Source: Candidatus Thioglobus autotrophicus (GTDB taxonomy: Bacteria; Pseudomonadota; Gammaproteobacteria; PS1; Pseudothioglobaceae). From it: 64,000 nt of DNA. Shown here in pieces: positions 3,175 to 15,017 of the stretch. Below the pieces are notes generated by a model that ran no database searches, was not told the DNA's origin, and was given only the letters and a program-made list of their open reading frames with translations. The DNA lies in assembly GCF_001293165.1 (NCBI RefSeq), contig NZ_CP010552.1, forward strand, positions 1,426,001 through 1,490,000, read 5' to 3'. The translations under genes were made by a program, and so were the position numbers. The stretch's first letter is position 1. Every line of letters starts with the position of its first letter.

Positions 3175-3298
3175 AGATAGTGAGTATTTAGTATAAAATT
3201 AGTAAAAAGTAACAAGATATGAGTAGAGAATTGAGTAGAAATTATAAACTTATCTTTAATTTTAATTAAAAAACAAGTAGTTATAAGTTTAGTTCTAT

Positions 3299-3342
3299 TC
3301 CCTCTCTCTCCACCATATTTTTACTTAAAAATCAATGACTTA
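3299..3342 (+). repeat. tRNA-Ser 3'-end-like attachment repeat, copy 1
   Basis: Forty-four bases here are identical to 9945-9988. The first part, ending in CTCTCTCCACCA, is the acceptor end of a tRNA-Ser gene including the encoded CCA; the remainder is flanking sequence. No anticodon or D arm and no complementary GGAGAG acceptor strand precedes it, so it is a fragment and not a tRNA gene. Tyrosine-recombinase islands that integrate in tRNA 3' ends leave such duplicated ends. I infer that this marks the boundary between two integrated segments. Confidence 0.75.
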
Positions 3343-3367
3343 TAAATGTTTACAAGTCATTGACACT

Positions 3368-3388
3368 ACATTTTTCACGTGAAAATGT
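3368..3388. repeat. CACGTG-centred palindrome, copy 1
   Basis: Left arm ACATTTTTCAC and right arm GTGAAAATGT pair except for one extra T. The 14-base core TTTTCACGTGAAAA also occurs in the palindrome at 10011-10038, and both lie 22-26 bases beyond a copy of the 44-base repeat. It may be a recombinase or regulator site belonging to the attachment region, or the terminator of the ancestral tRNA gene. Confidence 0.5.
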
Positions 3389-3433
3389 ACTTAAGTTTTT
3401 TCCTAGAATTGCCACTGTTACTGTATTTTTTGA

Positions 3434-3458
3434 ATAAAAATGAGGGATTCTTGCCCTC
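3434..3458 (-). terminator. Possible terminator of the sulfur operon
   Basis: On the minus strand a five-pair GC-rich stem (GAGGG / CCCTC, loop of seven) is followed by ATTTTTATT. It lies about 125 bases past the last gene of the leftward sulfur cluster. The short stem makes this tentative. Confidence 0.4.
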
Positions 3459-3584
3459 TACCAATTATCAAAGCAAGGAGTAAATTGGCTGGACATTTTC
3501 AATGGGTCTTTTAGGTAATAAGTGTTAGCCCTTATGTGTCAGCCAAGGACTTTTAATCACTTTTATTTAAACAGGCGACCCACC

Positions 3585-3782
3585 TTATAAAATAATATTT
3601 TTTTCAGAATCAATGATGTGATTTAAAACTTGATCCCAATCCTGATCAGCCATTTTATTGATAGAAAAATTAGCTATTATTGAGGTTTCGTTTTGCGTTT
3701 CAATGAATTTTAATTCATTTTTTAGGTGGCTAGAATCTGGGAAGTAGCCTACATCTAGAACAAAATATTTTAAGTTAGTCAT
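3585..3782 (-). CDS. Small protein of unknown function, last gene of sulfur cluster
   Basis: The 65-residue product has no signal peptide, no membrane segment and no cysteine. A beta-alpha-beta-like order of hydrophobic residues (LKYFVLDVG at the start, TSIIANFSI in the middle) suggests a small alpha/beta fold. It follows the two DsrE-like genes by 17 bases on the same strand, the position where dsrH/tusB would stand after dsrE and dsrF. It lacks the length (about 95 residues) and any obvious DsrH sequence likeness, so I do not assign it. Its tight placement in a ten-gene run is the main support for its being real. Confidence 0.6.
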   Translation of the reverse strand: MTNLKYFVLDVGYFPDSSHLKNELKFIETQNETSIIANFSINKMADQDWDQVLNHIIDSEKNIIL

Positions 3783-3799
3783 GTTGTATGTTTTATCGG

Positions 3800-4084
3800 T
3801 TAAATGGTAAGTATGTGATTAGATTTGTCTAATTCTGCACGAAATTGAACTTGGTCTATTTGTTGCATGTTGGCATCGTCAAGTATTGATAAAGGCTCAA
3901 TTTCACACAATTCCAATAGCTCTGCATTTTCAATAGTCTCTGCATTTTCTTCAATATGCCTATCAACAAAAATACAGCTGACACGGTGTCCAAATATTGT
4001 CAATCCAGCTGCCACTCTCATTGCTTCCGCATGATCACTTATTGCAAATACTAGAATATCTTTTTTAGTGTTAGATATTGTCAT
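3800..4084 (-). CDS. DsrE/DsrF-like sulfur relay protein
   Basis: The 94-residue cytosolic product has the DsrE/F-type Rossmann-like start (DILVFAISDHAEAMRVAAGL) in which a beta strand leads into an amphipathic helix with the AAGLTIFGHRV pattern. Two cysteines are present (about residues 36 and 59); the second, in ELCEIEP, could be the persulfide carrier but is not in a canonical context. DsrE-family proteins pass sulfane sulfur between TusA and other acceptors in sulfur oxidisers. The start overlaps the end of the neighbouring DsrE-like gene by four bases (ATGA), so the two are translationally coupled and probably form a heteromer, like DsrE and DsrF. The family call is from fold pattern and context. 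Confidence 0.65.
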   Translation of the reverse strand: MTISNTKKDILVFAISDHAEAMRVAAGLTIFGHRVSCIFVDRHIEENAETIENAELLELCEIEPLSILDDANMQQIDQVQFRAELDKSNHILTI

Positions 4085-4371
4085 ATTGATACCACCTTAT
4101 CATGGTTGGCAATCATTTCACTTAGGTTTGTTTGACTACCCATAGTAGCAATTGAAGTTGTATTGGGAAGATATCGATCCCAAGAGTGGTGGCATGCTAC
4201 AGAGTTTTCTATTATGTTTAGATTTTGCTTAATTTTTGCATCTTCTAAAGTCTTTATGCCTGCACCTGTAAAAAAGCAGCTGTATTGATATTTTTTCCTT
4301 ATACATGCATCGCTTAGTGGAAGTAATAGGTCTGCACCACGCTCTTGGCTAATAATAAATAATAAGCTCAT
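4081..4371 (-). CDS. DsrE-like protein with conserved cysteine
   Basis: The 96-residue product starts SLLFIISQERGADLLLPLSDAC, a DsrE-family strand-helix pattern. Cys60 in SVACHHSWDRY occupies the place of the persulfide-carrying cysteine of DsrE proteins, and a GSQTNLSEMI segment follows, as in DsrE-like peroxiredoxin-fold homologues. It likely accepts sulfane sulfur from the TusA-like protein encoded upstream in the same run and hands it on. It precedes and overlaps the second DsrE-like gene by four bases. Three further cysteines are present. The exact subfamily is uncertain, but a sulfur-relay role is supported by sequence and neighbours. Confidence 0.7.
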   Translation of the reverse strand: MSLLFIISQERGADLLLPLSDACIRKKYQYSCFFTGAGIKTLEDAKIKQNLNIIENSVACHHSWDRYLPNTTSIATMGSQTNLSEMIANHDKVVSI

Positions 4372-4382
4372 TTTTTAACTCC

Positions 4383-5027
4383 TTAATCAATAATTATTTT
4401 TACATTTGTGTAATCTAAAGCTACAAGGTTGGCAAAAACTGCAAGTGATGTAGAAATATCTTTTGATTGAATGATGATCTTTTCATGTTTTGACTGGGTT
4501 TTAGGGTTATCGACAAACCTCCAGTTTTGATCTTTCATTTTTTGAATTTGACTTTTTAGTACTAGAAAATTTTCTCTCATTCTTCCTAGATAGGCGCTAG
4601 AGCGGAACAGTTGCCTCTTACTTCCACTAGCTTTACCTGTTGCCTCAACTAATTGTTTAATATTGTTATTTGACCAAATCCATATTTTTTTTTGCCCAGC
4701 AAGAAAAAATAAAGCTGCCAACGCTTGGCTTTCTTTTTGACTTTCTCCATAAATCAATAATTCATCGGTATGGACTATGTTGGATGTGGAAAAAGCCCAA
4801 AAAATATCCCTAAAACTAGCCAGTTCTCCTTTAGATTCAAAGTCGTTAAAGGGCATGCATTTAGTTTTTTTAGCACTATAAAGTGTACATTCCTGGAGTT
4901 TACTGGAATTTACAGGGACTATATTTTCTAAGAATTCTTTGCTTAAATTATTTGTATAACTAATATCGGTATTGGCTATCGACTCACCAAGATGTAGAAA
5001 AATACTTATCCCAATAATGTAGAGCAT
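4383..5027 (-). CDS. Exported rhodanese-like protein lacking the catalytic cysteine
   Basis: The 214-residue product begins with a short hydrophobic signal sequence (LYIIGISIFLHLGESIA). The centre, about residues 88-125 (ELLIYGES, then ALAALFFLAGQKKIWIW), has the strand-loop-helix-strand pattern of a rhodanese domain around the active-site loop, but the position where active rhodaneses have Cys carries Gly in IYGES. Inactive rhodanese domains often bind or position a sulfur substrate. Two cysteines near residues 47 and 57 (ECTLYSAKKTKC) could form a disulfide. The C-terminal 90 residues are unassigned. The gene is packed between the small membrane protein (three bases upstream) and the DsrE-like genes. 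Rhodanese assignment is moderate; periplasmic location is likely. Confidence 0.55.
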   Translation of the reverse strand: MLYIIGISIFLHLGESIANTDISYTNNLSKEFLENIVPVNSSKLQECTLYSAKKTKCMPFNDFESKGELASFRDIFWAFSTSNIVHTDELLIYGESQKESQALAALFFLAGQKKIWIWSNNNIKQLVEATGKASGSKRQLFRSSAYLGRMRENFLVLKSQIQKMKDQNWRFVDNPKTQSKHEKIIIQSKDISTSLAVFANLVALDYTNVKIIID

Positions 5028-5030
5028 TAA

Positions 5031-5315
5031 TTAACAGCCTCCGAATTGGCGCTCAGGTATTTTTAAGAGTGTATTGTTATTAGTTGTAGGGGGGTTCTCC
5101 ATATAGTGATCCATTAATTCAACAACTGGAAGAAATCCATAGTCGTCCCCCATATTTATATTTAGATCAAAATTTTCAATATTTTGTGGTGTATTCATAT
5201 GCTTAATTTCTTCTGGCGATAGCTTGGCAAATGGGAAAATAAGAAGCAGTACAATTAAACTAATTGTTAATGCAGATGAGCAAAAAATTAAACCTAGTTT
5301 TGTTTGGTATTTCAT
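5031..5315 (-). CDS. Small single-pass membrane protein ending in Gly-Gly-Cys
   Basis: The 94-residue product has one membrane segment at residues 8-30 and a soluble C-terminal part of about 60 residues, probably periplasmic. It ends in RQFGGC, with the only C-terminal cysteine as the last residue. Terminal or near-terminal cysteines on flexible arms are used as sulfur carriers in DsrC and related proteins, so a sulfur-carrying arm is an attractive inference. A good ribosome site (AAAAGG) precedes ATG 5313-5315. The product resembles the one encoded at 5406-5624: one membrane pass, then a F-x-P segment, then a L-(V/M)-x-H-(F/Y) motif. The family is not known to me. Confidence 0.65.
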   Translation of the reverse strand: MKYQTKLGLIFCSSALTISLIVLLLIFPFAKLSPEEIKHMNTPQNIENFDLNINMGDDYGFLPVVELMDHYMENPPTTNNNTLLKIPERQFGGC

Positions 5316-5327
5316 ATGGCCTTTTGG

Positions 5328-5402
5328 TTAAGTAAGACTAATGTACATTAAGTAAAATGCAGTCGCAAAAGCAATTAACTGAGCAGTAGTTTCATAATCC
5401 AT
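5328..5402 (-). CDS. 24-residue membrane micropeptide
   Basis: A minus-strand frame from ATG 5400-5402 to TAA 5328-5330 encodes 24 residues: an acidic start (MDYETT) and a hydrophobic segment, AQLIAFATAFYLMYISL, long enough for one membrane pass. Its start lies three bases after the stop of the preceding gene (5406) and its stop 12 bases before the start of the next (5315), so it exactly fills the gap. AAAGG about 12 bases upstream could serve as a ribosome site, and coupling to the upstream stop is likely. The fit suggests a subunit-like peptide similar in size to CcoQ- or KdpF-type peptides. It is too short for homology claims. Confidence 0.5.
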   Translation of the reverse strand: MDYETTAQLIAFATAFYLMYISLT

Positions 5403-5405
5403 TAT

Positions 5406-5624
5406 CTAATTACCTTTAAAATGTTTAACAAGTGTTTCTATTGACAGTATTTCACCTGATTCTGGATGAATCGCAGCTGGCGTAAAGAAAGGTACGCCAT
5501 TTCTAGAAGTTTTCAAAGATTCAGGCGTTTTAGCGAACATGTAGAAAAAAATCACGACTGTCATTATCATGATTAGTACTGATATTACTAAAAGCTGCTT
5601 ATCTTTTGCTTTGTTAAAAGTCAT
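5406..5624 (-). CDS. Small single-pass membrane protein, sulfur cluster
   Basis: The 72-residue product has a basic cytosolic start (KAKDKQ), one membrane segment at about residues 11-31 and a short outer part containing NGVPFFTPAAIHPESGE and ending LVKHFKGN. It contains no cysteine. The layout and the F-F-x-P and L-V-x-H-F elements resemble the Gly-Gly-Cys protein encoded downstream at 5031-5315, so the pair may be paralogous subunits. The gene starts three bases after the TusA-like gene ends and is followed three bases later by the micropeptide. I know no family for it; association with the YeeE permeases is inferred from order. Confidence 0.65.
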   Translation of the reverse strand: MTFNKAKDKQLLVISVLIMIMTVVIFFYMFAKTPESLKTSRNGVPFFTPAAIHPESGEILSIETLVKHFKGN

Positions 5625-5627
5625 GAG

Positions 5628-5942
5628 TTAATTTTTTTGTAAAAGAACTTTCCAGCTCTGATCAGAAAAAACTGTTCCTAAATGTGTACTACTTAACTCC
5701 GACTGCATTGATGCTAAAGATTCCATTGAAGTGGGATTATCAATGACTATCTTGACAATATCACCACTCTTGGCATCATTCATTGCGCCTTTGGTCATTA
5801 ACTGCGGTCTAGGGCATGAGAATCCAAGGCAATCGATAGTTTTTGTAACATTTATCACGTCTCCGTTATCAAGGGTTATTGTGGGATCATTGTCGCTGAT
5901 GTTAGTCACTTTTTCAGTCACTTTTTTTGTAAATAAACCCAT
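5628..5942 (-). CDS. TusA-family sulfur carrier protein
   Basis: The 104-residue product carries the TusA signature CLGFSCPRPQLMT with the persulfide-bearing Cys43 in C-P-x-P, followed by the usual G-D-I-V-K-I-V-I-D strand and the second helix. TusA-type proteins take sulfane sulfur and pass it on by persulfide exchange. This one has an N-terminal extension of about 30 residues compared with the 80-residue TusA of E. coli, so the carrier domain starts near residue 34. Its start codon overlaps the stop of the upstream YeeE gene by one base, the classical YeeE-TusA pairing in which the permease delivers sulfur to its carrier. Assignment is firm; the exact acceptor is inferred to be the DsrE-like pair downstream. 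Confidence 0.92.
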   Translation of the reverse strand: MGLFTKKVTEKVTNISDNDPTITLDNGDVINVTKTIDCLGFSCPRPQLMTKGAMNDAKSGDIVKIVIDNPTSMESLASMQSELSSTHLGTVFSDQSWKVLLQKN

Positions 5943-6535
5943 TACTTATCTCCTGTTGTTTGTAAAGATTTTTTTGCTTGAATTTTTAAATATATGAAAA
6001 GTAAAACTGCAAACTGTATTAGTCCAAAGAATATTGCTGGGATTCCAGTTTTTTCTTGGAGTGTTTCTGCATTTGCAAATCCTAGCTGAAGGGTTTCTAG
6101 ATTAGGCTCACCAGTCATCGCAATAGGAGCGGGCGGCCAGTAATCAAATGACCAAAGTAATGAGAATAAAAACATACCTATAAAGGTAAATATTAATGCC
6201 CAGATTGCACCAACATTACCTTCACCAGACTTAACCCATGTCGATACGGTGCACGCACCTGCAAGAACCATACCTATTCCAAATATAAATAAGCCGATAA
6301 CCTGATTAAGGCCAACATCAAATTTCATGGTATGGCCTAGACCAAAGGTAATAAATGTTGTAAATCCTATGGTCAAAACCATCATAGCAAGCAATAAAGC
6401 TTCAGTATTTCGATAGGTTTTAAACAATATTGCATCTCTTAGAGCTGCTGTATTGCAAAATCTAGAGCGTTGTACTAGTAATCCAACTATAGATCCAAAT
6501 AAAAATGCGACTAAAATTTCACCAATTACTGACAT
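5942..6535 (-). CDS. YeeE/YedE-family sulfur-compound permease subunit
   Basis: The 197-residue membrane protein has five or six hydrophobic segments and two YeeE signatures: VQRSRFCNTAALRD near residue 22 and GMVLAGACTVSTWVKSGEG near residue 92. In TsuA, the structurally known YeeE protein, cysteines in such motifs line the path that conducts thiosulfate. Here Cys27 and Cys95 occupy these places. The length is about half that of full YeeE (about 350 residues), so it works as a half-transporter with the second subunit encoded 12 bases upstream, as in PmpA/PmpB pairs. A long polar loop (residues about 138-165) is presumably periplasmic. Confidence 0.88.
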   Translation of the reverse strand: MSVIGEILVAFLFGSIVGLLVQRSRFCNTAALRDAILFKTYRNTEALLLAMMVLTIGFTTFITFGLGHTMKFDVGLNQVIGLFIFGIGMVLAGACTVSTWVKSGEGNVGAIWALIFTFIGMFLFSLLWSFDYWPPAPIAMTGEPNLETLQLGFANAETLQEKTGIPAIFFGLIQFAVLLFIYLKIQAKKSLQTTGDK

Positions 6536-6547
6536 ATCATTCCTTTT

Positions 6548-7039
6548 TTAAAATCCTAAAACTTTTTTATAAATATGAGAACCGACCCAGGCGCCTGCAA
6601 TAATCCCGGTCATTGATAGATAGCCTCCAAGGTTTAGTTGTGGCGTCAAACCAAAGAATGTTGAGACGTTGCAAACAAAAGCCAGGCGTATTCCAATACC
6701 CATCATAAGGCCACCTATAGTAATCATTACCCATTCAGATAAACTACCTGGAAAGCGCCAAAAGAATTCATTGCTTAACTTTGCCCCAACAAATGCGCCA
6801 AAAAGCATGCCAAGAGAAATGTAAATTTTCCAATAACCGAAATCAGGTGGAAATACTATTTGCCAGAAAGGTATTTCATTAATTTTATCTCCTATAATTA
6901 ACTCAGCGGCTAAGCCAGTCATCATTGTTTCGCCACCTCCAACTGTCCATGCACCTAAAATCAAAAAAAGAAAAATATCAAAAAAAGCAATAGCCACTAA
7001 TGCAATTCTTGGATCAAGTGATTTTTTAAAAAAGTCCAT
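6548..7039 (-). CDS. YeeE/YedE-family permease subunit, first gene of sulfur operon
   Basis: The 163-residue membrane protein has about four hydrophobic segments and the YeeE half-signature GGLMMGIGIRLAFVCNVSTF (about residues 109-128), in which Cys123 is the likely thiol of the conduction path. An amphipathic loop rich in aromatic residues (FPPDFGYWKIY) separates the first two segments. Together with the following YeeE gene it would make one complete permease for thiosulfate or another sulfur anion. It is the promoter-proximal gene of the leftward cluster; the AT-rich region before it contains two repeated operator-like dyads. The family call is strong, the substrate is inferred. Confidence 0.85.
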   Translation of the reverse strand: MDFFKKSLDPRIALVAIAFFDIFLFLILGAWTVGGGETMMTGLAAELIIGDKINEIPFWQIVFPPDFGYWKIYISLGMLFGAFVGAKLSNEFFWRFPGSLSEWVMITIGGLMMGIGIRLAFVCNVSTFFGLTPQLNLGGYLSMTGIIAGAWVGSHIYKKVLGF

Positions 7040-7413
7040 GTTGGTTATTTATTTTTATAGAAGTTGTGAGCACTATATTTGTTATTTTGAATTCATGGGT
7101 AGTATTATTGTATTAGTTTTTAAAATGATATTTTTCAACTATATAAATACAGCCCTTGTAACTAAAAAATTACACAAGTATTTTTTTATAGTAGTTGTTA
7201 ATACTATTTTTTGTCATGTAAGTTTATAAGCAATATTAATCAATACATTTTTATTATTAATAATTGATGGGTTTATATAGAACACTTTCCGATTTAAAAA
7301 AAATGTATAGCAAATGCTACTACCTTTTAATATATTCTTTAGTGCATAATCAAATTCGAAACAATAAAAGAGGCTGTAGTATGAAAGTAAAAACACAAAA
7401 AAACGGAGAAGCA
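7040..7413. promoter_or_regulatory. Divergent promoter region with repeated dyad
   Basis: This 374-base AT-rich region separates the leftward YeeE operon from the rightward rhodanese gene and has no credible gene. Two direct repeats of 25 bases, 7052-7076 and 7183-7207, agree at 21 positions. Each contains an outward dyad, clearest in copy 2 (ATAGTA, eight bases, TACTAT at 7188-7207) and weaker in copy 1 (ATAG, CTAT at 7057-7076). Their spacing of 131 bases and position in a divergent promoter suggest paired operators for one regulator acting on both arms. No -10/-35 boxes can be assigned safely in this base composition. Confidence 0.5.
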
Positions 7414-8337
7414 ATGATGTTAAAAAACAAACTATTAATATTTACAACAATGTTATTTGCAATGGTATTACAAGCAAATGCATCAATAACTATTGGTACA
7501 CCATTAGTAAGCACCTATTGGTTATCAGATCATAAAGACAAAGTAATTGTGCTCGATGTACAAAAAAAGATAAAAAAAGATATGAAGACAATAGCTGGGG
7601 CGGTTTTGGTTGACTGGTCTAAAGTTAGAGCCAAAAAAACAGAAGAAGGAATGGGGTTAATTAAAATGCTTCCCACCAAAGTAGAGTTTAATAAGCACAT
7701 GCAAAGTTTAGGTGTGAATAATAATAGTGCAATAGTAATTACAACATCAGGAGATGGTGCTTCTAATATATTTTTAGGAACAAGGTTGTATTGGCAGCTA
7801 AAATACTATGGTCACGATAATGTAGCAATGTTAGATGGTGGTAATGCAAAATGGAATAACGAGAAGAAAGCAATGGGTCATGGCGCAACACTTTCTAAAG
7901 GTAGTTTTGTTTCAACAACTGAAAGAAAGGAGCTTCTGGCTACAACATCAGATGTAGAAAAAGCTGTAGAAAGTGGAGATACTGTGTTGGTTGATAGTAG
8001 AGAAGAGGACCAATATTTAGGATTGTTTTATAAGAAAAAGTATGTTTATAAAGCAGGACATATCCCTGGTGGTAAATCGGCTTTTGGTGGAACATTCTTA
8101 AAGCATAAAGGAAAGACCTTTCAAACAAAGAAAAACATAGCGGATATTTTTAAGGCTAAAGGAATAACGACTACAGGAAAGGGCATAGCTTATTGTAATA
8201 GTGGTCATTGGGGAAGTGGAACATGGTTTATACAACATGAGATTTTAGGCAATAAAAACTTCAAGCTATATGATGGTTCAATGCATGCTTGGACAAAAGG
8301 AAACAAGAGACTTGTAAATAAAATTATTTACGAATAA
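7414..8337 (+). CDS. Exported two-domain rhodanese (thiosulfate sulfurtransferase type)
   Basis: I start the gene at ATG 7414 because GGAG (7405-7408) lies five bases upstream and the product then opens with a signal peptide (KNKLLIFTTMLFAMVLQANA). The frame is open further upstream, but that part lacks these features. The 307-residue product has two rhodanese domains: about 25-150, with the inactive loop VITTSGDGASN and the VAMLDGG strand, and about 175-300, with the active-site loop CNSGHWGSG carrying Cys261. This is the SseA/TST architecture, transferring sulfane sulfur from thiosulfate or a persulfide to an acceptor. Being exported, it could supply the YeeE permease encoded divergently or act with the cytochrome c downstream. 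A terminator follows. Confidence 0.88.
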   Translation: MMLKNKLLIFTTMLFAMVLQANASITIGTPLVSTYWLSDHKDKVIVLDVQKKIKKDMKTIAGAVLVDWSKVRAKKTEEGMGLIKMLPTKVEFNKHMQSLGVNNNSAIVITTSGDGASNIFLGTRLYWQLKYYGHDNVAMLDGGNAKWNNEKKAMGHGATLSKGSFVSTTERKELLATTSDVEKAVESGDTVLVDSREEDQYLGLFYKKKYVYKAGHIPGGKSAFGGTFLKHKGKTFQTKKNIADIFKAKGITTTGKGIAYCNSGHWGSGTWFIQHEILGNKNFKLYDGSMHAWTKGNKRLVNKIIYE

Positions 8338-8343
8338 TCACTT

Positions 8344-8381
8344 ACATTCAAACCATTTAATAGATGGTTTGAATGTTTTTA
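8344..8381 (+). terminator. Rho-independent terminator after rhodanese gene
   Basis: A perfect 13-base stem (ACATTCAAACCAT at 8344-8356 and its complement at 8364-8376) with a seven-base loop is followed by a T run. It begins seven bases after the rhodanese stop codon, so it should end that transcript and separate it from the cytochrome gene. Confidence 0.88.
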
Positions 8382-8424
8382 TATTTATATTTAGGTTTAA
8401 TTTAAATTTAAATATAAAAACATT
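8372..8424. repeat. Inverted repeat overlapping the terminator
   Basis: AATGTTTTTATATTTA (8372-8387) recurs as its exact complement at 8409-8424, with a 21-base spacer. The left arm shares bases with the right arm of the preceding terminator stem, so the two hairpins are mutually exclusive in RNA. It lies in the leader of the cytochrome c gene and might act as an antiterminator or simply be a second terminator. Confidence 0.55.
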
Positions 8425-8462
8425 CTAATTAGGGCGGCAATATTTCAACTAGAAAAATTATA

Positions 8463-9095
8463 TTGGTCTTTATGGTACTTATCTTTTTAGGTGGTCCCAT
8501 AAAGGCCAATTCTATTATTGGTATAAAACAAGTGTCTTTAATTGAATATGATGAGCAACTATGTAGTTCAGAGCTGGTTATTATTAGAGGCGATCTTGCA
8601 AAGCTAACCAAAATAACAACGCCTGAATTATATAAAAAAGGGTTAAAAATCCGAATAGATGGAGCTTTTAGAACACTTAACTGGATTTGCAGAGGGGTTA
8701 TTGATAATAACCTCAATGTTTCATATTTATTTAAAGAGTTAGAGCAATTGTTTATAGCAAAAAAGTTTCAAGAGTTGTATTTGAAGCTTGATTTTTTAAT
8801 AAAAAAATATCCACTAAATCTTGATCAATACTTACCAGGTAGCGCATCAAAAAAAGATACAAAGGTTGGGATGAAAATTTATCAGCATTATTGCCACGGC
8901 TGTCATTTGAGCCATAACGACCAAATAAAGATGCCAGCATTATCATTAGAGATAATGGCTAAAAATCTTTCATCTGAAGAGTTTATTGCGCGTATGATTG
9001 CCGGAGTTAAGGGTAATGGTGTAATTGCGCTAAGAAACCCTTTGAGTCGTAAAGATATTTCCAGTATTTATAGCTATTTACTGTATAAAGAATAA
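8463..9095 (+). CDS. Exported c-type cytochrome, monoheme
   Basis: From TTG 8463 the product has 210 residues. A C-H-G-C-H heme-binding motif (Cys144, Cys147, His148) defines a class I cytochrome c domain in the C-terminal 75 residues, ending in the usual helix (DISSIYSYLL); M-P-A-L just after the heme site offers a candidate methionine ligand. The N-terminal 125 residues are unassigned and include two cysteines. The start is unclear: TTG 8463 or ATG 8472 gives a hydrophobic leader with no basic n-region, whereas ATT 8442, seven bases after AGGG, would add STRKIIL and complete a signal peptide. The gene follows the exported rhodanese and probably takes electrons from sulfur oxidation in the periplasm. 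Confidence 0.85.
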   Translation: MVFMVLIFLGGPIKANSIIGIKQVSLIEYDEQLCSSELVIIRGDLAKLTKITTPELYKKGLKIRIDGAFRTLNWICRGVIDNNLNVSYLFKELEQLFIAKKFQELYLKLDFLIKKYPLNLDQYLPGSASKKDTKVGMKIYQHYCHGCHLSHNDQIKMPALSLEIMAKNLSSEEFIARMIAGVKGNGVIALRNPLSRKDISSIYSYLLYKE

Positions 9096-9107
9096 ATTAC
9101 AACAGCA

Positions 9108-9132
9108 TGATGTCCTGTCATCACATTTTTTT
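9108..9132 (+). terminator. Weak hairpin terminator after cytochrome c
   Basis: TGATG (9108-9112) pairs with CATCA (9119-9123) across a six-base loop and is followed by CATTTTTTT. The short stem makes this tentative; it lies 12 bases after the cytochrome stop. Confidence 0.35.
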
Positions 9133-9144
9133 AGGTAGTTAAAT

Positions 9145-9438
9145 ATGTCCACATTATTTTCTGATCGTAAACTTAAGCACTTGTTTAACGTTTGCTCAAC
9201 TGAACAAGTAAAAGAGTTCGTCCCACTTAAGAGAAGTATTCGCATACATGGGCATGGTACGACCATTAGACTGGAAGAAGCTTATTGGACAGTTTTAGAG
9301 CAAATGGCGGAAGATGAAGAGTTGTCATTGGCAAAATTGCTGGAGCTGATTAGCGACACCTGTTTAGTGGCAAATGATAAAAACCTTGCCTCTTGTTTGC
9401 GAGTATTATGTTTAAAGTATATTAATATTTATTATTAG
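9145..9438 (+). CDS. Ribbon-helix-helix domain protein
   Basis: The 97-residue product holds a ribbon-helix-helix domain of the RHH_4 type at residues about 29-70: the strand KRSIRIHGHGTTIRLE followed by helices YWTVLEQMAEDE and SLAKLLELI. Such proteins bind DNA as dimers through the strand. The N-terminal 28 residues and the C-terminal tail rich in Leu and Tyr are unassigned. It follows the cytochrome c gene by 49 bases and is the only regulator-like gene in the sulfur segment, which makes it a candidate for the dyad repeats between the divergent operons. AGG at 9133-9135 supports the ATG start. Confidence 0.75.
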   Translation: MSTLFSDRKLKHLFNVCSTEQVKEFVPLKRSIRIHGHGTTIRLEEAYWTVLEQMAEDEELSLAKLLELISDTCLVANDKNLASCLRVLCLKYINIYY

Positions 9439-9491
9439 CACACTTTAGCAACTCCTCTTGTGCCTTTATTGCATTTCCCAGACATATGTAG

Positions 9492-9713
9492 AGGGCTATT
9501 CTCACTACTTTAGTAATTTTAGATTGTTGTCTTAATTTATTGGGGTGTTATAGTGTTAGTAATTTGGACGCTTTAAGCTCGAATGGTGAGATCTTTAGAG
9601 GCGTGATTAAGCTACAAAGAATGTCAGCTGATTTTCCCTACTTAGTTTTAAAAGATACAAGTTGTAGTGGTCTGACAAACTGTAGTGGTCCGTTAATCTT
9701 GGACTTATTTTAA
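9492..9713 (+). other. Open frame without a normal start, possible gene remnant
   Basis: After TAG 9489-9491 the frame is open to TAA 9711-9713. It reads like a lipoprotein start: a hydrophobic stretch ending in NLLGCYS, then about 50 polar residues with two S-G motifs. There is no ATG or GTG early in the frame; only ATT 9498 or TTG at about 9540 could start it. It may be a degraded gene or chance. The last 39 bases belong to the island-end repeat. Confidence 0.25.
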
Positions 9714-9960
9714 GTTGCTTTTACCGGTTTAGGGGTGCCCGTCATTGCATATAAAATTGGTATTTAGGATGTTGTATTTACAATCGATGTTATTTAATAT
9801 CAGTTTTTTATTTTTAAACAAAAGTTTAACCACATTTTCACTACATCTGCCATATGTGCACCTATGCACAGGTTGTTACACCTCGTTAAAACCTTGTTGT
9901 ATAGCGATATTTAACTATATAATACATTTAAAAGGGGATTCGAATCCCTCTCTCTCCACC
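9675..9960. repeat. Island-end repeat, copy A
   Basis: Blocks ACAAACTGTAGTGGT (from 9675), AAGTTTAACCACATTTTCACTACATCTG (from about 9823), ACTATATAAT and GGATTCGAATCCCTCTCT occur here and, in the same order, at 14688-14895. Copy A is about 80 bases longer between the first two blocks. The unit ends at the tRNA-Ser 3' end, so it looks like the conserved right end of a family of integrative elements. Confidence 0.65.
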
Positions 9961-9988
9961 ATATTTTTACTTAAAAATCAATGACTTA
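9945..9988 (+). repeat. tRNA-Ser 3'-end-like attachment repeat, copy 2
   Basis: These 44 bases are identical to 3299-3342. Here the preceding bases GGATTCGAA extend the likeness to the tRNA T-arm (TTCGAAT loop). The upstream sequence does not fold into the rest of a tRNA. Direct repeats at 3299 and 9945 bracket the whole sulfur segment. Confidence 0.75.
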
Positions 9989-10010
9989 CATTTATTTTTG
10001 ATTTTGTTTT

Positions 10011-10038
10011 AACCAAATTTTCACGTGAAAATTTGGTT
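10011..10038. repeat. Perfect 28-base palindrome, CACGTG centre
   Basis: AACCAAATTTTCAC is followed directly by its exact complement. It shares the core TTTTCACGTGAAAA with the palindrome at 3368-3388 and stands at the same distance from the 44-base repeat. Lacking a loop, it is more like a protein-binding site than a terminator. Confidence 0.65.
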
Positions 10039-10070
10039 GCATTTAATTAATTTAACAAATATCCAAAAAA

Positions 10071-10772
10071 TTATTGAACAAAATCTAAAGTCAACAGCAA
10101 ACGATTTTCTTCACTAAAAATTTCCGGTGAACGGTGAACCAGGCCTAAATCTCCATTTTCTTGCCAAAGTGTGCCTTTGAGTAATGCCACATCTCCATAA
10201 TTAAGCTTTTGAATATCGCTATGATTTTTATATAGTCCAGATATATTATCAGGTAGGCCATTGCTCCCTCTGCCTAATTTAGTATGATTAATAGCTTCAT
10301 GTGGCAACCATTCTGTGGCTACACCTTGGTATGTAGTAACAAGGCGACAAGGAACTCTGTCAACATGGAATCTTGGACACATAACACTATCAAGAGATTG
10401 CAACCGCAAGCCCACTTGCTCAATCTCAAACAAACAACAAAACATATCGGCAAGTTCAGCAATATCTCTTTTTAATTTTGTTAAATTATTAACACCACTA
10501 ACACCATCAAGAGATTCGCTAACGCGTGAAAATATATTTTGTGGTGTTACGATCATTTCTGATTGAAATTTAGGGTTTAAAGCTAAAAACTTTTTCACCG
10601 AGCCTTGAGTTTCTGAAGGTAGATTGCGCTTCCAAATAGCGATATTGACACCTTCTTGGTAAATATCTGTAAAGATAGTTGGGCTTTCTCCTTGTGATGC
10701 GTGTTGCGATACCAAAGGTATGCTATGAATAAATTCGGGTTTAGTGGTATGAATAGGGTTGGTAGATAACAT
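10071..10772 (-). CDS. DUF1826 family protein, zinc-linked
   Basis: The 233-residue product matches the DUF1826 family: the early IAIWKRNLP segment, the central ELADMFCCLFEIEQVGLRLQ helix, the C-P-R-F-H-V-D motif near residue 133 followed by a CRLVTTYQG strand, and the late GDVALLKG and LVHRSPE motifs. The H-x-D and later His are compatible with a metal-binding double-stranded beta-helix. The biochemical role of the family is unknown, but its genes often occur near Zur-controlled genes. Here it is divergent from the zinc transport operon, with an operator-like palindrome 42 bases upstream of its start. The start ATG is preceded by AGAGAG. Confidence 0.8.
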   Translation of the reverse strand: MLSTNPIHTTKPEFIHSIPLVSQHASQGESPTIFTDIYQEGVNIAIWKRNLPSETQGSVKKFLALNPKFQSEMIVTPQNIFSRVSESLDGVSGVNNLTKLKRDIAELADMFCCLFEIEQVGLRLQSLDSVMCPRFHVDRVPCRLVTTYQGVATEWLPHEAINHTKLGRGSNGLPDNISGLYKNHSDIQKLNYGDVALLKGTLWQENGDLGLVHRSPEIFSEENRLLLTLDFVQ

Positions 10773-10813
10773 AACTCTCTCTTATTAAATATATATAAAA
10801 ATGGTATAACAAG

Positions 10814-10854
10814 TATTATATATAATTGCAATATTATTGCAATTATATATAATA
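10814..10854. promoter_or_regulatory. Candidate Zur operator 1
   Basis: Two perfect 18-base arms (10814-10831 and 10837-10854) flank the five bases TATTA, with a TTGCAA-containing centre. The 16 bases ATATTATTGCAATTAT (10831-10846) recur in front of zrgA at 11084-11099. AT-rich dyads of this size are typical of Fur-family operators, and a Fur/Zur-type gene ends the facing operon. Control of the DUF1826 gene is inferred. Confidence 0.6.
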
Positions 10855-10866
10855 TATTTTTTGGAT

Positions 10867-10971
10867 ATGAAAGTGATATTTTCTCCACTGAGAGTAGATG
10901 TGTCGTCTCGTATAGTGCTAGTTAATATCACCATTACAGTGGGTGTCGATGCAAATTATGCAAATCTATAA
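10867..10971 (+). CDS. Possible 34-residue small ORF in zinc island
   Basis: ATG 10867 to TAA 10971 encodes a short, beta-like peptide starting MKVIFSPLRVDVSS. It begins 12 bases after candidate operator 1, on the opposite side from the DUF1826 gene. There is only a weak ribosome site (GGA). It may be a leader peptide, a gene remnant or chance. I list it because the 347 bases between the DUF1826 gene and zrgA otherwise hold only the two operators. Confidence 0.2.
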   Translation: MKVIFSPLRVDVSSRIVLVNITITVGVDANYANL

Positions 10972-11083
10972 AGCAATATTAAGCTTTGACAATCCAGCCT
11001 TGATGCAGTCAGCATTTAGTCGTACATCGCATTAATTTTATCCAAATTTATTTAATTATTTGATATTTTATTTTATACATGGT

Positions 11084-11099
11084 ATATTATTGCAATTAT
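11084..11099. promoter_or_regulatory. Candidate Zur operator 2, upstream of zrgA
   Basis: ATATTATTGCAATTAT is identical to part of operator 1 and lies 20 bases before the chosen zrgA start, where a repressor would block transcription or the early transcript. The flanks (GGTATATTATTGCAATTATTATTAC) extend the partial dyad. Confidence 0.55.
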
Positions 11100-11119
11100 T
11101 ATTACAACAGGCAACTATT

Positions 11120-11785
11120 ATGAATAAATCAATCGTAGCATCATTATTAATAGCAACAAGTGTATCGGTCGATGCGAATGAAAAAAGGCATGCGAGCGCC
11201 CATGTGCATGGGTTAAATAATGTGGAAATGCTTCTTAGTCAAAATCAATTGAATGTGATGTATCAAATGCCAATGGTGCAGATTAATGCTGAACACGATC
11301 ATGATGATCACGAAGAAGGTGGACTGATTGCTTTTATAGAAGAGTTATTTGGCCATGGCCACGATGATCATCATGACCATGAGGAGGAAGAGGGTCATGA
11401 TAACGAGCATGAGCACAAAGAATCACACAAAGATGAGCATGGACATGAAGATCATGATGAGGACAAGATAGTAGTACCGGAGAACCTATCAGAAAAATTA
11501 GCTGAATTTAAAGACAACACTGAGTTGTTTAAATTAGCATCTGCTGCAAAGTGTTCTATTGTAGATTATGATTCTGAACTTCATCAGGTTTCAAGTGAAT
11601 CTAAGCATAAAGATATTGAATTGTCTTATCAGTTTAAGTGTAGCAATCCTGAGAGGCTTGATAGCATTGAGTTTACTGCCTTTAAACATTTTCCAGGGCT
11701 AAATGTAATTGTTTTAGATGCACTTATTAATAACAAGGCGATTTCTAAAAAAATAGACTCGGATGATGGTAAAGTTGTTTGGTGA
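11120..11785 (+). CDS. zrgA: ZrgA-like (DUF2796) histidine-rich periplasmic zinc protein
   Basis: I choose ATG 11120: AGG lies upstream and the product then begins with a signal peptide (NKSIVASLLIATSVSVDA). The 221-residue protein starts its mature part with HASAHVHGLNNVEM, the DUF2796 opening, and has a loop at about residues 55-115 with more than 20 His alternating with Asp and Glu, a zinc-capturing segment. The C-terminal half (YQFKCSNPERLDSIEFTAFKHFP) is the conserved DUF2796 end. In Vibrio cholerae ZrgA, the first gene of a Zur-regulated zinc ABC system, belongs to this family. Here the same order follows: ATPase, permease, DUF3299, then Zur. The candidate Zur operator ends 20 bases upstream. 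Confidence 0.85.
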   Translation: MNKSIVASLLIATSVSVDANEKRHASAHVHGLNNVEMLLSQNQLNVMYQMPMVQINAEHDHDDHEEGGLIAFIEELFGHGHDDHHDHEEEEGHDNEHEHKESHKDEHGHEDHDEDKIVVPENLSEKLAEFKDNTELFKLASAAKCSIVDYDSELHQVSSESKHKDIELSYQFKCSNPERLDSIEFTAFKHFPGLNVIVLDALINNKAISKKIDSDDGKVVW

Positions 11786-12444
11786 TTTTAAATACCAATA
11801 GTCTTCAATATACTTATCAAAATGGGAAAGTTATTAGCTTTCCCGATATTGAGATTAAAGCTGGTCAAAAGGTCCTCATCATTGGATTTTCTGGATCTGG
11901 AAAAACAACCTTATTAAATTTAATTGCCGGTGCTTTAAAGATCCAATCTGGAGAGGTAAGCTTACTTGGAAATAGCTATTCATCCATGTCTTCTACCGAG
12001 CTAGATAGACTTAGGGCAGATCATATTGGTTATATTTTTCAAACACTTAATTTGATTCCGTTTTTATCTGTTGCTGAAAACATCTCATTAGGCGTTAAGT
12101 TTTCGCATAGCAGGGGTTTGCTTGTTAGTAACTTGACAGTGGAAATTGAAAGACTGCTTAAGTCGCTTGGGCTAGATAAAGAAGTGCTAGATAATCCTGT
12201 TGATAATCTTAGTATTGGCCAACAACAGCGAGTTGCTGTTGCTAGGGCGCTACTTGGAAGTCCTAATTTGATTCTTGCAGATGAGCCCACTTCTGCACTT
12301 GATCAAGACTCAACCAATAATTTCTTAAATGAGGTGATGCAAACATTCAATCCGGAGAGTCAAGCGATACTTATGGTTAGCCACGACTTATCGCTTGCGC
12401 CACACTTTGATACAGTGATTGATTTTAATAAAGCCAATGTTTAA
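11782..12444 (+). CDS. ABC transporter ATP-binding protein (MacB/LolD type)
   Basis: The product (about 220 residues) has all ABC motifs: Walker A GFSGSGKTT at about 36-44, Q-loop FQTLNL, signature LSIGQQQR near 143, Walker B LILADEPTSALD near 163 and the switch His in VSHDL. The subgroup is that of LolD/MacB ATPases, which drive FtsX-like permeases. GTG 11782 overlaps the stop of zrgA (GTGA), so it is the likely start, translationally coupled. With the downstream permease and ZrgA it should form the zinc-uptake ABC system of this island, although LolD-like machines can also act by mechanotransmission instead of transport. Family firm, substrate from context. Confidence 0.88.
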   Translation: MILNTNSLQYTYQNGKVISFPDIEIKAGQKVLIIGFSGSGKTTLLNLIAGALKIQSGEVSLLGNSYSSMSSTELDRLRADHIGYIFQTLNLIPFLSVAENISLGVKFSHSRGLLVSNLTVEIERLLKSLGLDKEVLDNPVDNLSIGQQQRVAVARALLGSPNLILADEPTSALDQDSTNNFLNEVMQTFNPESQAILMVSHDLSLAPHFDTVIDFNKANV

Positions 12445-13684
12445 GTTGTTATTCAAATCAATTCGCTCAAGAATACTGCCAGTGTCTTTAGTGACAATAA
12501 CATTGATGGCATCAATGGTTTTGTTGTTAAGTATTGAGCGTATACAGAAGGCTACAGAAGAGGGTTTTAATCAAAGTATATCAGGCGTTGATGCAATTAT
12601 TGGTCCACGATCAAGCTCTCTTGAGCTTGTGCTTTATACGGTGTTTCATATTGGTCGACCTACTAATAATATCACCATGCAAACGGTTGATGATATTAAA
12701 CAAAGAAAAGACATAGATTGGCTTGTACCGATTGCTTTAGGGGATAGTCATCAAGGTTTTAGAGTGATAGCCACTGAAAAAAACTACTTTCAACATATTA
12801 AGTATGCGGGAGATAGGTCACTTTCCATGTCTAGTGGTTCGGCCTTTAATCAGATTTCTGAGGCGGTAATTGGCGCAGATGTTGCAAAAAAATTAAATTA
12901 CAAGATAGGCTCAAGTTTACAAATTAGCCATGGATCTGGTGAATCTATTGGTATGAAGCATGATGACTTTTCATTTAAAGTTTCTGGCATACTAAATAAA
13001 ACAGGTACTCCAATAGACCAAGCTATTTTTGTAGATTTAAAAGGATATGAGTTGATTCATATTGGTTGGCAAAGTGGCAAAAAACTCTTCAGTCTTGATA
13101 GATTCGATATGTCTTCAATAACAAATGATGAGCTAACTCCTAAAACGGTCACCGCTGCTTTTGTGGGTTTAAAATCAAAGCTAACATTATTCAAGTTTGC
13201 TAAAAGTATACAAAAATATTCAGATGAAGCCATTTCTGCAGTGATTCCAGGAATTGCACTATCTCAATTGTGGTCAGTTATTGGTCTTGTTGATAAAGGA
13301 TTTGAATTGTTAAGTTGGATAATTATTGTGATTAGTTTAATCGCTATGGTCACACTTATTATTTCTAGTATTGAAAATAGAAAACGTGAAATGACTATAT
13401 ATAGGGCTAATGGCGCTAGCGCATTCTTTTTATCTAAACTGGTGGTATTTGAGGCGCTATTAATAGGTGTAACTGCAATTATTGGCGCTATTGTATTTGT
13501 TACAATTGTTAGTTATCTTGCGACTGATCAAATAAATGTAGCTCTGGGCATCACCCCTAAGTTTGAGTGGGTTAGTTTAGAGGAAGTAAAGATATTTGGT
13601 ATTATTTTGTTAGCTGGTGTATTAAGTAGTCTTGTGCCAGCGATAATGGTCTTTAGAAAAAACATACATCATGGTTTGAGTTAA
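12437..13684 (+). CDS. FtsX-like ABC permease of zinc system
   Basis: ATG 12437 overlaps the ATPase stop by eight bases. The 415-residue product has the MacB/FtsX layout: one membrane helix near residues 13-33, a periplasmic domain of about 230 residues (40-270), then three helices (about 285-310, 335-365, 385-410). The FtsX-type ENRKREMTIYRANGAS coupling segment precedes the third helix. It pairs with the ATPase encoded just before. In Zrg-type systems such a permease works with the histidine-rich ZrgA. It could move zinc, or extract zinc or a lipoprotein by mechanotransmission. The family is clear and the role is inferred from the neighbours. Confidence 0.85.
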   Translation: MFKLLFKSIRSRILPVSLVTITLMASMVLLLSIERIQKATEEGFNQSISGVDAIIGPRSSSLELVLYTVFHIGRPTNNITMQTVDDIKQRKDIDWLVPIALGDSHQGFRVIATEKNYFQHIKYAGDRSLSMSSGSAFNQISEAVIGADVAKKLNYKIGSSLQISHGSGESIGMKHDDFSFKVSGILNKTGTPIDQAIFVDLKGYELIHIGWQSGKKLFSLDRFDMSSITNDELTPKTVTAAFVGLKSKLTLFKFAKSIQKYSDEAISAVIPGIALSQLWSVIGLVDKGFELLSWIIIVISLIAMVTLIISSIENRKREMTIYRANGASAFFLSKLVVFEALLIGVTAIIGAIVFVTIVSYLATDQINVALGITPKFEWVSLEEVKIFGIILLAGVLSSLVPAIMVFRKNIHHGLS

Positions 13685-13690
13685 ATAAAA

Positions 13691-14221
13691 ATGGTTAATA
13701 AATTTATTGTTGTTATATTGTTATTTTTCTCATCTGTTTCTTTTGCTAAAGAGGTTTCAGATGAGTATCTAAGTCAGTTGGTCGACGGCTGGAATTTATT
13801 GGCGCCGTCTGAATTATATGACTTCATTCCAGAAAATATTGATTATAAAACCATGAATAGTCCTGAATTTCAAAAAAAAATTGATAATGCCGGCAATCAA
13901 ATTAATAGCTTAATGGATGGAAAGGTTATTGAAATTGCTGGATTTATGGTGCCATTAAAAACTAAAGGTTCTAGTGTTACACAGTTTTTATTAGTGCCAG
14001 AAGCCGGGCAATGTATTCATGTTCCACCACCACCTTTAAATCAAACGCTGTTGGTTGAAATGCCTGAAAACCCTACGAATATTAGAGACATCTATATCCC
14101 TATTATTGTTACTGGAAAAGTTTCAGTTGGCTCTCAAAGCTTTGATATAGCAGACAGCGGTTATTCATTGACTGATGTAACTGTTGAAAATCTAACTTTT
14201 AAGTATGAGGATGATCTTTAA
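13691..14221 (+). CDS. Exported DUF3299 protein of zinc operon
   Basis: The 176-residue product has a signal peptide (NKFIVVILLFFSSVSFA) and the DUF3299 core at about residues 75-150: the strand KVIEIAGFMVPLK, followed by FLLVPEAGQCIHVPPPPLNQ with a single cysteine and a histidine in a proline-rich loop, and the late strand IPIIVTGKVSV. The family has an OB-like barrel of unknown biochemistry and often occurs in zinc-linked operons with DUF2796 and MacB-like transporters. The C-H-x-P-P loop could bind metal. It lies six bases after the permease gene, and its stop overlaps the start of zur (TAATG). Confidence 0.82.
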   Translation: MVNKFIVVILLFFSSVSFAKEVSDEYLSQLVDGWNLLAPSELYDFIPENIDYKTMNSPEFQKKIDNAGNQINSLMDGKVIEIAGFMVPLKTKGSSVTQFLLVPEAGQCIHVPPPPLNQTLLVEMPENPTNIRDIYIPIIVTGKVSVGSQSFDIADSGYSLTDVTVENLTFKYEDDL

Positions 14222-14643
14222 TGATTGATAAAAGTGAATTGTTAAACAGGTGCACAAAGGCAGGAAAAAGTGTCACACCCCAAAGAATGGCTATTATTAA
14301 ACAATTATCAAAATCAAGTCATGGTGTTTCAGCCTATGATTTGTTAGAGCAAGTGAACGCTGCTGGTCATGAATTTAATATTAGCACCATCTATAGAGTT
14401 CTTGATTTTTGGACTGAAATGGGGGTTGTGCACAAAATTGAATCTAATAATACATATCTAGTTTGTAACGATTCGCATGACAACCATCTACATATTTTGT
14501 TTCATTGCACTAAATGCCATGAAATTGAAGAGTCCTGTCAATTTTCAAAACAAATATCTATCCCTGATAATAAAAAGTTTATAGCTAAAAAAAACCAAGT
14601 AGTAGAATTGCAAGGGTTGTGTAGTGGTTGTAAAATTGCCTAA
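14221..14643 (+). CDS. zur: Fur-family repressor, probably Zur
   Basis: The 140-residue product has the Fur-type winged helix (residues about 10-85: TPQRMAIIKQL, then the recognition helix STIYRVLDFWTEMGVVHKI) and a C-terminal dimerisation half with two structural CxxC zinc motifs (HCTKC near residue 100, CSGC near 136) and HLHILFHC as the regulatory metal region. Its position at the end of a zinc-uptake operon makes Zur more likely than Fur or PerR. It would repress this operon and the divergent DUF1826 gene through the matching palindromes at 10814 and 11084, giving autoregulation. The start overlaps the preceding stop by one base. Confidence 0.85.
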   Translation: MIDKSELLNRCTKAGKSVTPQRMAIIKQLSKSSHGVSAYDLLEQVNAAGHEFNISTIYRVLDFWTEMGVVHKIESNNTYLVCNDSHDNHLHILFHCTKCHEIEESCQFSKQISIPDNKKFIAKKNQVVELQGLCSGCKIA

Positions 14644-15017
14644 TTGATGATTTTTTTTAATTATTAGGCTTGCCTTGTATTGAGCTAACAAACTGTAGTG
14701 GTTTGTTAATTCTAGGCGCACTTTTTAGTTTCTTTTGAATGATAATTTGATTAATATAAGTTTAACCACATTTTCACTACATCTGTCATAAATGCAGCTA
14801 AATACAGCTAGTGATAATTTTAAAAAACCCTTTTACAGCGCTATATTTAGCTATATAATGCTTTTTTAAACGGATTCGAATCCCTCTCTCCACCAAATTT
14901 TTATCTTCTACTGTGTTAATTGTATAAAAATATTCAATCACATAGTTTTAACTATACTCAATCAAATTTTTCTACAATATGCCTTGTAGAAAGAAAAAAA
15001 CCATAACCATTCTTATT
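14644..15017. other. Right boundary of accessory region
   Basis: This 374-base gap between zur and prlC has no gene. It holds the island-end repeat copy B (14688-14895), ending in the third tRNA-Ser 3'-end-like sequence. After it the sequence is an AT-rich leader of prlC, with no copy of the CACGTG palindrome. Core-genome genes start here. Confidence 0.6.
14688..14895 (+). repeat. Island-end repeat, copy B, with third tRNA-Ser 3' end
   Basis: The order of blocks matches 9675-9960 (ACAAACTGTAGTGGT, TTTAACCACATTTTCACTAC, CTATATAATG, GGATTCGAATCCCTCTC). The tRNA-like end at 14872-14895 has two bases fewer in the CTCTCTC run than the other copies. No tRNA body precedes it. It is the outer end of the stacked islands. 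Confidence 0.65.

Follow-up and report, generated by a model that had tools for sequence, protein, structure and literature searches.

The gene cluster at positions 3585-9438 of the Candidatus Thioglobus autotrophicus stretch analysed here (the window, 64,000 nucleotides of a genome that is a single contig of 1.51 Mb) probably encodes a relay that imports sulfane sulfur and feeds the cytoplasmic reverse dissimilatory sulfite reductase (rDsr) pathway of a sulfur oxidiser. Ten leftward open reading frames (ORFs) at 3585-7039, spaced by at most 17 nt or slightly overlapping, face a divergent arm at 7414-9438 with a rhodanese, a cytochrome c and a ribbon-helix-helix (RHH) gene. All of these ORFs, which an earlier interpretation of the DNA (the sequence-only reading) had proposed as a sulfur-capture and relay system, are present. 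Of the readings considered, the import relay is the one that accounts for every part; it is based on gene content, conservation, co-occurrence, the cysteines, two DsrE/F folds and the rDsr/Sox background of the hosts. The invariant C-terminal cysteine of one membrane protein, the tie to rDsr and Sox, and the mobile-cassette setting were not part of the sequence-only reading.

The set is conserved well beyond the genus. Relatives of YeeE1 were found in 11 of 369 genomes sampled from the class, the own genome included (61-78% identity outside the genus). Eight named loci also have them, including Rhodospirillales, Magnetovibrio and Sulfuricellaceae. Iterated profile searches recovered a near-complete set on 19 loci in gamma- and alphaproteobacterial genomes, usually in the order YeeE2, YeeE1, TusA, 72-residue protein, 24-residue protein, 94-residue membrane protein, inactive rhodanese, DsrE-like protein, DsrF-like protein, 65-residue protein, rhodanese and cytochrome. 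Three contigs reveal only the start of the cluster because they break off within it, the Sulfuricellaceae contig after TusA. At the Magnetovibrio locus (L031) the rhodanese is reversed, and the inactive rhodanese and the cytochrome were not found. Within the genus the marker gene is present in 4 of 12 genomes. The version in L028, a contig labelled Candidatus Thioglobus MED-G172, resembles L026 and L027 far more than it does the remaining Thioglobus loci, possibly through misbinning or as a distinct lineage.

A profile of the 94-residue membrane protein selected the same 11 of the 369 genomes as the permease, with one further marginal match (E 0.007). This co-occurrence is strong (Fisher p 3e-20), but the sampled genomes are partly related and the count does not represent independent events. 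The small ORFs are real genes. In comparisons with G007 and G009 all ten leftward genes have a dN/dS below 0.3, consistent with purifying selection: 0.12-0.19 for the 65-residue protein, 0.27-0.29 for the 94-residue membrane protein, 0.10-0.17 for the 72-residue protein and at most 0.09, from few sites, for the 24-residue protein. Together with the synteny this rules out chance ORFs. The co-occurrence check proposed with the sequence-only reading thus came out in its favour, since all three small membrane proteins (72, 24 and 94 residues) are kept beside the split YeeE elsewhere, as are the degenerate rhodanese and the 65-residue protein.

Carriers of the cluster are mostly rDsr and Sox sulfur oxidisers. 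Of the 21 carriers, 19 have a dsrA match, one of them partial and the other 18 over the cut-off, and 18 have soxB. One carrier, G007, is only 66% complete. In the class sample dsrA is present in 10 of 11 carriers, compared with 107 of 358 other genomes. This strong tie to dsrA argues against a signalling module, which we regard as distinctly improbable. Such a module would have its precedent in SoxT1B (PMC11582611): the permease and relay would send little sulfur inward to inform a regulator, for example the RHH protein. The RHH gene is present at about eight loci, and the region immediately upstream of the cluster encodes, in L034 (3247-6056), a sensor kinase together with a sigma-54 response regulator and, in L036 (6280-7647), a sigma-54 response regulator. 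However, most loci lack the RHH gene, and a full DsrE/F trio with two rhodaneses exceeds the needs of a sensor. Phosphonate-binding-type periplasmic proteins are encoded near the cluster in L039 (1612-2673) and L029 (2439-3518).

With regard to the import relay, Pfam supports both the permease and TusA. The Pfam family Sulf_transp matches the N-terminal half of YeeE (3.8e-25, profile positions 1-155) and the C-terminal half (1.5e-20, positions 172-310). The halves have 197 and 163 residues respectively, and the C-terminal half is encoded first. All three cysteines of E. coli YeeE are kept, C25 and C94 in the N-terminal half and C302 in the C-terminal half. These cysteines are also of the TsuA type, and the halves match the TsuA models, though far below the cut-offs of those models. 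The split YeeE might therefore, like TsuA, bring in intact thiosulfate for TusA to cleave in the manner of TsuB, with the small membrane proteins doing no more than stabilising the permease. This is unlikely: most carriers have Sox, by which thiosulfate is handled in the periplasm, and in vitro neither TusA nor DsrEFH type II of cable bacteria was persulfidated by thiosulfate (PMC13293266). Uptake of thiosulfate would also leave the exported rhodaneses, the cytochrome and an invariant terminal cysteine unexplained.

That cysteine, central to the proposed import relay, is the last residue of the 94-residue membrane protein. Among 17 sequences only Y71, G93 and C94 are invariant, and the cysteine usually stands within GGC; members in G289 and G235, outside this alignment, likewise end in FGGC. 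The protein has one helix with positive charges ahead of it and mostly acidic residues behind, a pattern that predicts a periplasmic tail. The 72-residue protein has a similar layout but no conserved cysteine, and P34, G43, P54 and L65 are invariant across its 17 homologues. Homologues of the 24-residue microprotein have 24-33 residues and stand at the corresponding position in 14 loci. When solved structures were searched with profiles, neither the two larger small membrane proteins nor the 65-residue protein had a meaningful match, and a Pfam scan gave no convincing family for any leftward gene other than the permease halves and TusA.

The two DsrE-like proteins of the sequence-only reading are borne out by predicted structures. 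For the AlphaFold model of the 96-residue protein (pLDDT 94), DsrE and TusD score Z 11.9 and unrelated folds lie far below; its C60 is invariant in 16 sequences, but a profile search of solved structures with this protein found no DsrE. For the soluble 94-residue protein (pLDDT 90.5) a second aligner placed a DsrE/DsrF-like chain first (Z 11.2), whereas Foldseek alone put general Rossmann-type folds first; the best profile match in the PDB was DsrF, at a weak E of 0.51. The fold comparison does not separate DsrE from DsrF. Judged by its position, the 65-residue protein probably goes with these two. The transfer that such proteins would perform is known from other work: the TusA persulfide loads DsrE type II, which in turn loads DsrC (PMC13293266).

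On the exported side, the degenerate 214-residue rhodanese of the window is not recognised by Pfam, whereas its full-length orthologues at the equivalent place match Pfam Rhodanese at about 1e-6 to 5e-30. The active-loop cysteine is missing from the window protein, from its Thioglobus orthologues and from nearly all others, with a divergent exception in L041, in agreement with the inactive rhodanese postulated earlier. The divergent rhodanese has the active loop CNSGHWGS in the window and in G003. Many others, G007 and G009 among them, have CNTGHWAS, and a copy in G206 that is divergently placed is similar to the window form. For the window rhodanese a start at 7414, preceded by GGAG, is more plausible than the longest-ORF start at 7264. 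The active rhodanese and the RHH protein were confirmed by Pfam. The cytochrome assignment is based on a single CxxCH, conserved in 14 homologues, with a CBB3 match below the cut-off.

Combined, these parts suggest the following route. Thiosulfate, polysulfide or a persulfide derived from Sox would supply sulfane sulfur to the exported rhodanese, and the inactive rhodanese would serve as its partner or scaffold. Next, the membrane-tethered 94-residue protein would receive the sulfur on its C-terminal cysteine. It may act as a swinging arm and offer the sulfur to the split YeeE pair, where the three conserved cysteines would line a path through the membrane and the 72- and 24-residue proteins would be permease subunits. 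Inside, TusA would accept the sulfur; the next carrier would be Cys60 of the DsrE-like protein, part of a DsrE/F/H-like complex, and DsrC and rDsrAB would use the sulfur from there. The cytochrome c might drain electrons from the periplasmic step. We infer the periplasmic loading, the contact of the tail with the permease, the role of the cytochrome and the direction of flow. The sequence-only reading had outlined a similar route; the capture-and-relay role that it gave the cluster remains the most plausible one, and the small proteins do accompany the permease, but its order and direction of flow are still conjectural.

Several observations weigh against the import relay. Most rDsr genomes of the class sample (107 of 117) lack the cluster, so it is no general requirement, and G343, a 100% complete carrier, has soxB but no dsrA was found. 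The Ca. Thioglobus autotrophicus genome has two further DsrE-family genes beside its dsrA and dsrB matches. The case for the cluster is built on genes, conservation and predicted folds, and the docking of the GGC tail on the permease is conjecture. Furthermore, transfer between TusA and DsrE type II is reversible in vitro (PMC13293266), which means that the direction is not fixed. The relay might then run outward and dispose of surplus cytoplasmic sulfane sulfur, and Ca. Thioglobus autotrophicus does store sulfur in the periplasm (PMC6509183). Export or detoxification is nevertheless very improbable because characterised members of the YeeE family import (PMC11582611, PMC10812762) and Sox already supplies sulfur in the periplasm.

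If the import relay holds, it bears on the passage of sulfane sulfur across the membrane of bacteria that start oxidation outside and complete it inside. Hyphomicrobium SoxT1A imports sulfur and has been described as the sole demonstrated importer, not a general solution (PMC11582611), and uptake of zero-valent sulfur is known for a YedE1E2 pair (PMC10812762). Being conserved and tied to rDsr genomes, the cluster is a concrete candidate importer with named cysteines. It is a real possibility, although somewhat less likely than not, that the GGC protein represents a new class of periplasmic sulfane-sulfur carrier docking on a split YeeE, and that the cluster is a dedicated import route for some rDsr oxidisers, spread as a mobile cassette.

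The surroundings are consistent with such mobility. The cluster lies between direct repeats, identical over 44 bp, that carry the 3' end of tRNA-Ser and have no further copy in the genome. About 6.6 kb to the left of the left repeat there is an intact tRNA-Ser(GGA) followed by a tyrosine integrase, and in G003 the cluster starts directly after the intact tRNA-Ser. The cassette has a G+C content of 33%, compared with 40% in the window beyond 16 kb, and no integrase was found in its interior. As it is situated between tRNA-Ser repeats beside an integrase-bearing island, the cluster is probably a mobile cassette, its movement being deduced from the repeats. This suggests that the proposed ability to import sulfur is gained and lost among SUP05 bacteria of oxygen-poor seas. 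Ancestry at 5031-7039 is mosaic: the genes from the 65-residue to the 214-residue protein are identical to those of G003, and the genes from the 24-residue protein to YeeE1 are near those of G007. This switch in relatedness points to recombination within the cluster. A viral origin was rejected: neither YeeE1 nor the DsrF-like protein had a relative in viral contigs, and among phage and plasmid records the only YeeE matches were distant.

Features of the sulfur cluster and its flanking repeats
Feature	Position in window	Strand	Basis or remark
65-residue protein	3585..3782	-	Position kept in at least 15 loci; possible DsrH-like third subunit, by position only
94-residue DsrF-like protein (soluble)	3800..4084	-	AlphaFold model and DsrE/DsrF-like fold matches
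96-residue DsrE-like protein, invariant Cys60	4081..4371	-	AlphaFold model, DsrE/TusD fold matches
Exported degenerate tandem rhodanese without active-loop cysteine, 214 residues	4383..5027	-	Alignment; full-length orthologues are Pfam Rhodanese
94-residue membrane-anchored protein, terminal GGC	5031..5315	-	Alignment, co-occurrence with permease
24-residue single-helix membrane microprotein	5328..5402	-	Homologues in same place, 14 loci
72-residue single-helix membrane protein	5406..5624	-	17 homologues
TusA-family sulfur carrier	5628..5942	-	PF01206 6.5e-14; CPRP motif conserved
YeeE N-terminal half, two conserved cysteines	5942..6535	-	PF04143
YeeE C-terminal half, third conserved cysteine	6548..7039	-	PF04143
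Exported rhodanese, active loop CNSGHWGS	7414..8337	+	PF00581 4.9e-18; alignment
Exported monohaem cytochrome c	8463..9095 (start codon uncertain in this strain)	+	CxxCH; weak CBB3 match
RHH_4 ribbon-helix-helix protein, likely regulator	9145..9438	+	PF13467 2e-22
Left direct repeat with truncated tRNA-Ser 3' end	3293..3351	+	44 bp identical to copy at 9945
Right direct repeat with tRNA-Ser 3' end	9939..9997	+	Second of two copies in genome

The tRNA-Ser(GGA) island (window 3293-14903; L048:16624-18063) has a tyrosine integrase and is divided into modules by tRNA 3'-end repeats at 3293, at 9939 and, more weakly, at about 14753-14903 (138 nt, 76%). The next module, at 10071-14643, contains a DUF1826 gene, a ZrgA-like zinc protein, an ABC/FtsX pair, a DUF3299 gene and a Fur-family regulator; in G009 the FtsX-like gene and further length-matched genes lie to the left of the sulfur cluster. 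At 2205-2819 a pentapeptide-repeat protein is encoded by a DNA repeat with a 15-nt period, next to a Sel1-repeat protein at 915-2171.

Both SoxYZ and DsrC bear sulfur on a cysteine that lies at, or close to, a flexible C-terminus, and the tail of the 94-residue membrane protein is analogous. Unlike these carriers, the protein is membrane-tethered, its cysteine is the very last residue and no sequence relation was found. When tested as SoxYZ, by a SoxY tail of GGCGG with SoxZ, it fails because of its GGC end, its single-helix anchor and the lack of a SoxYZ family match.

The permease shares three conserved channel cysteines and a TusA-like partner with TsuA/TsuB and SoxT1A. TsuA and SoxT are single chains of 330-350 residues, whereas this permease is encoded by two genes, C-terminal half first, and lies outside a sox regulatory operon. 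PmpAB and YedE1E2 are likewise two-gene YeeE proteins with a C-terminal and an N-terminal half, but their halves have about 130 residues and one cysteine each (PMC11582611); with 163 and 197 residues and three cysteines, membership in PmpAB is ruled out.

The closest known counterpart is the YTD cluster with DsrEFH type II (PMC13293266, PMC13047784). The combination of a split three-cysteine permease, three small membrane proteins, two exported rhodaneses (one inactive, one active) and a cytochrome was not found in the literature searched, which mostly lacked subscription journals; the description of the system as undescribed therefore applies to the exported half, but not to the core of permease, TusA and DsrE/F, which resembles YTD. 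The split permease with its small membrane proteins, the exported rhodaneses and the cytochrome set the cluster apart from DsrEFH type II of Desulfobacterota, and the hosts here are mostly proteobacteria with oxidative sulfur metabolism; the likeness is one of gene content and folds. Both have a YeeE/YedE permease adjoining TusA and three small proteins in a row, two of them with DsrE/DsrF folds and the DsrE-like one with one invariant cysteine. The cytoplasmic half is of a known kind because the published DsrEFH type II is likewise encoded beside TusA and YeeE, and there sulfur is transferred in vitro from TusA to Cys67 and on to DsrC (PMC13293266).

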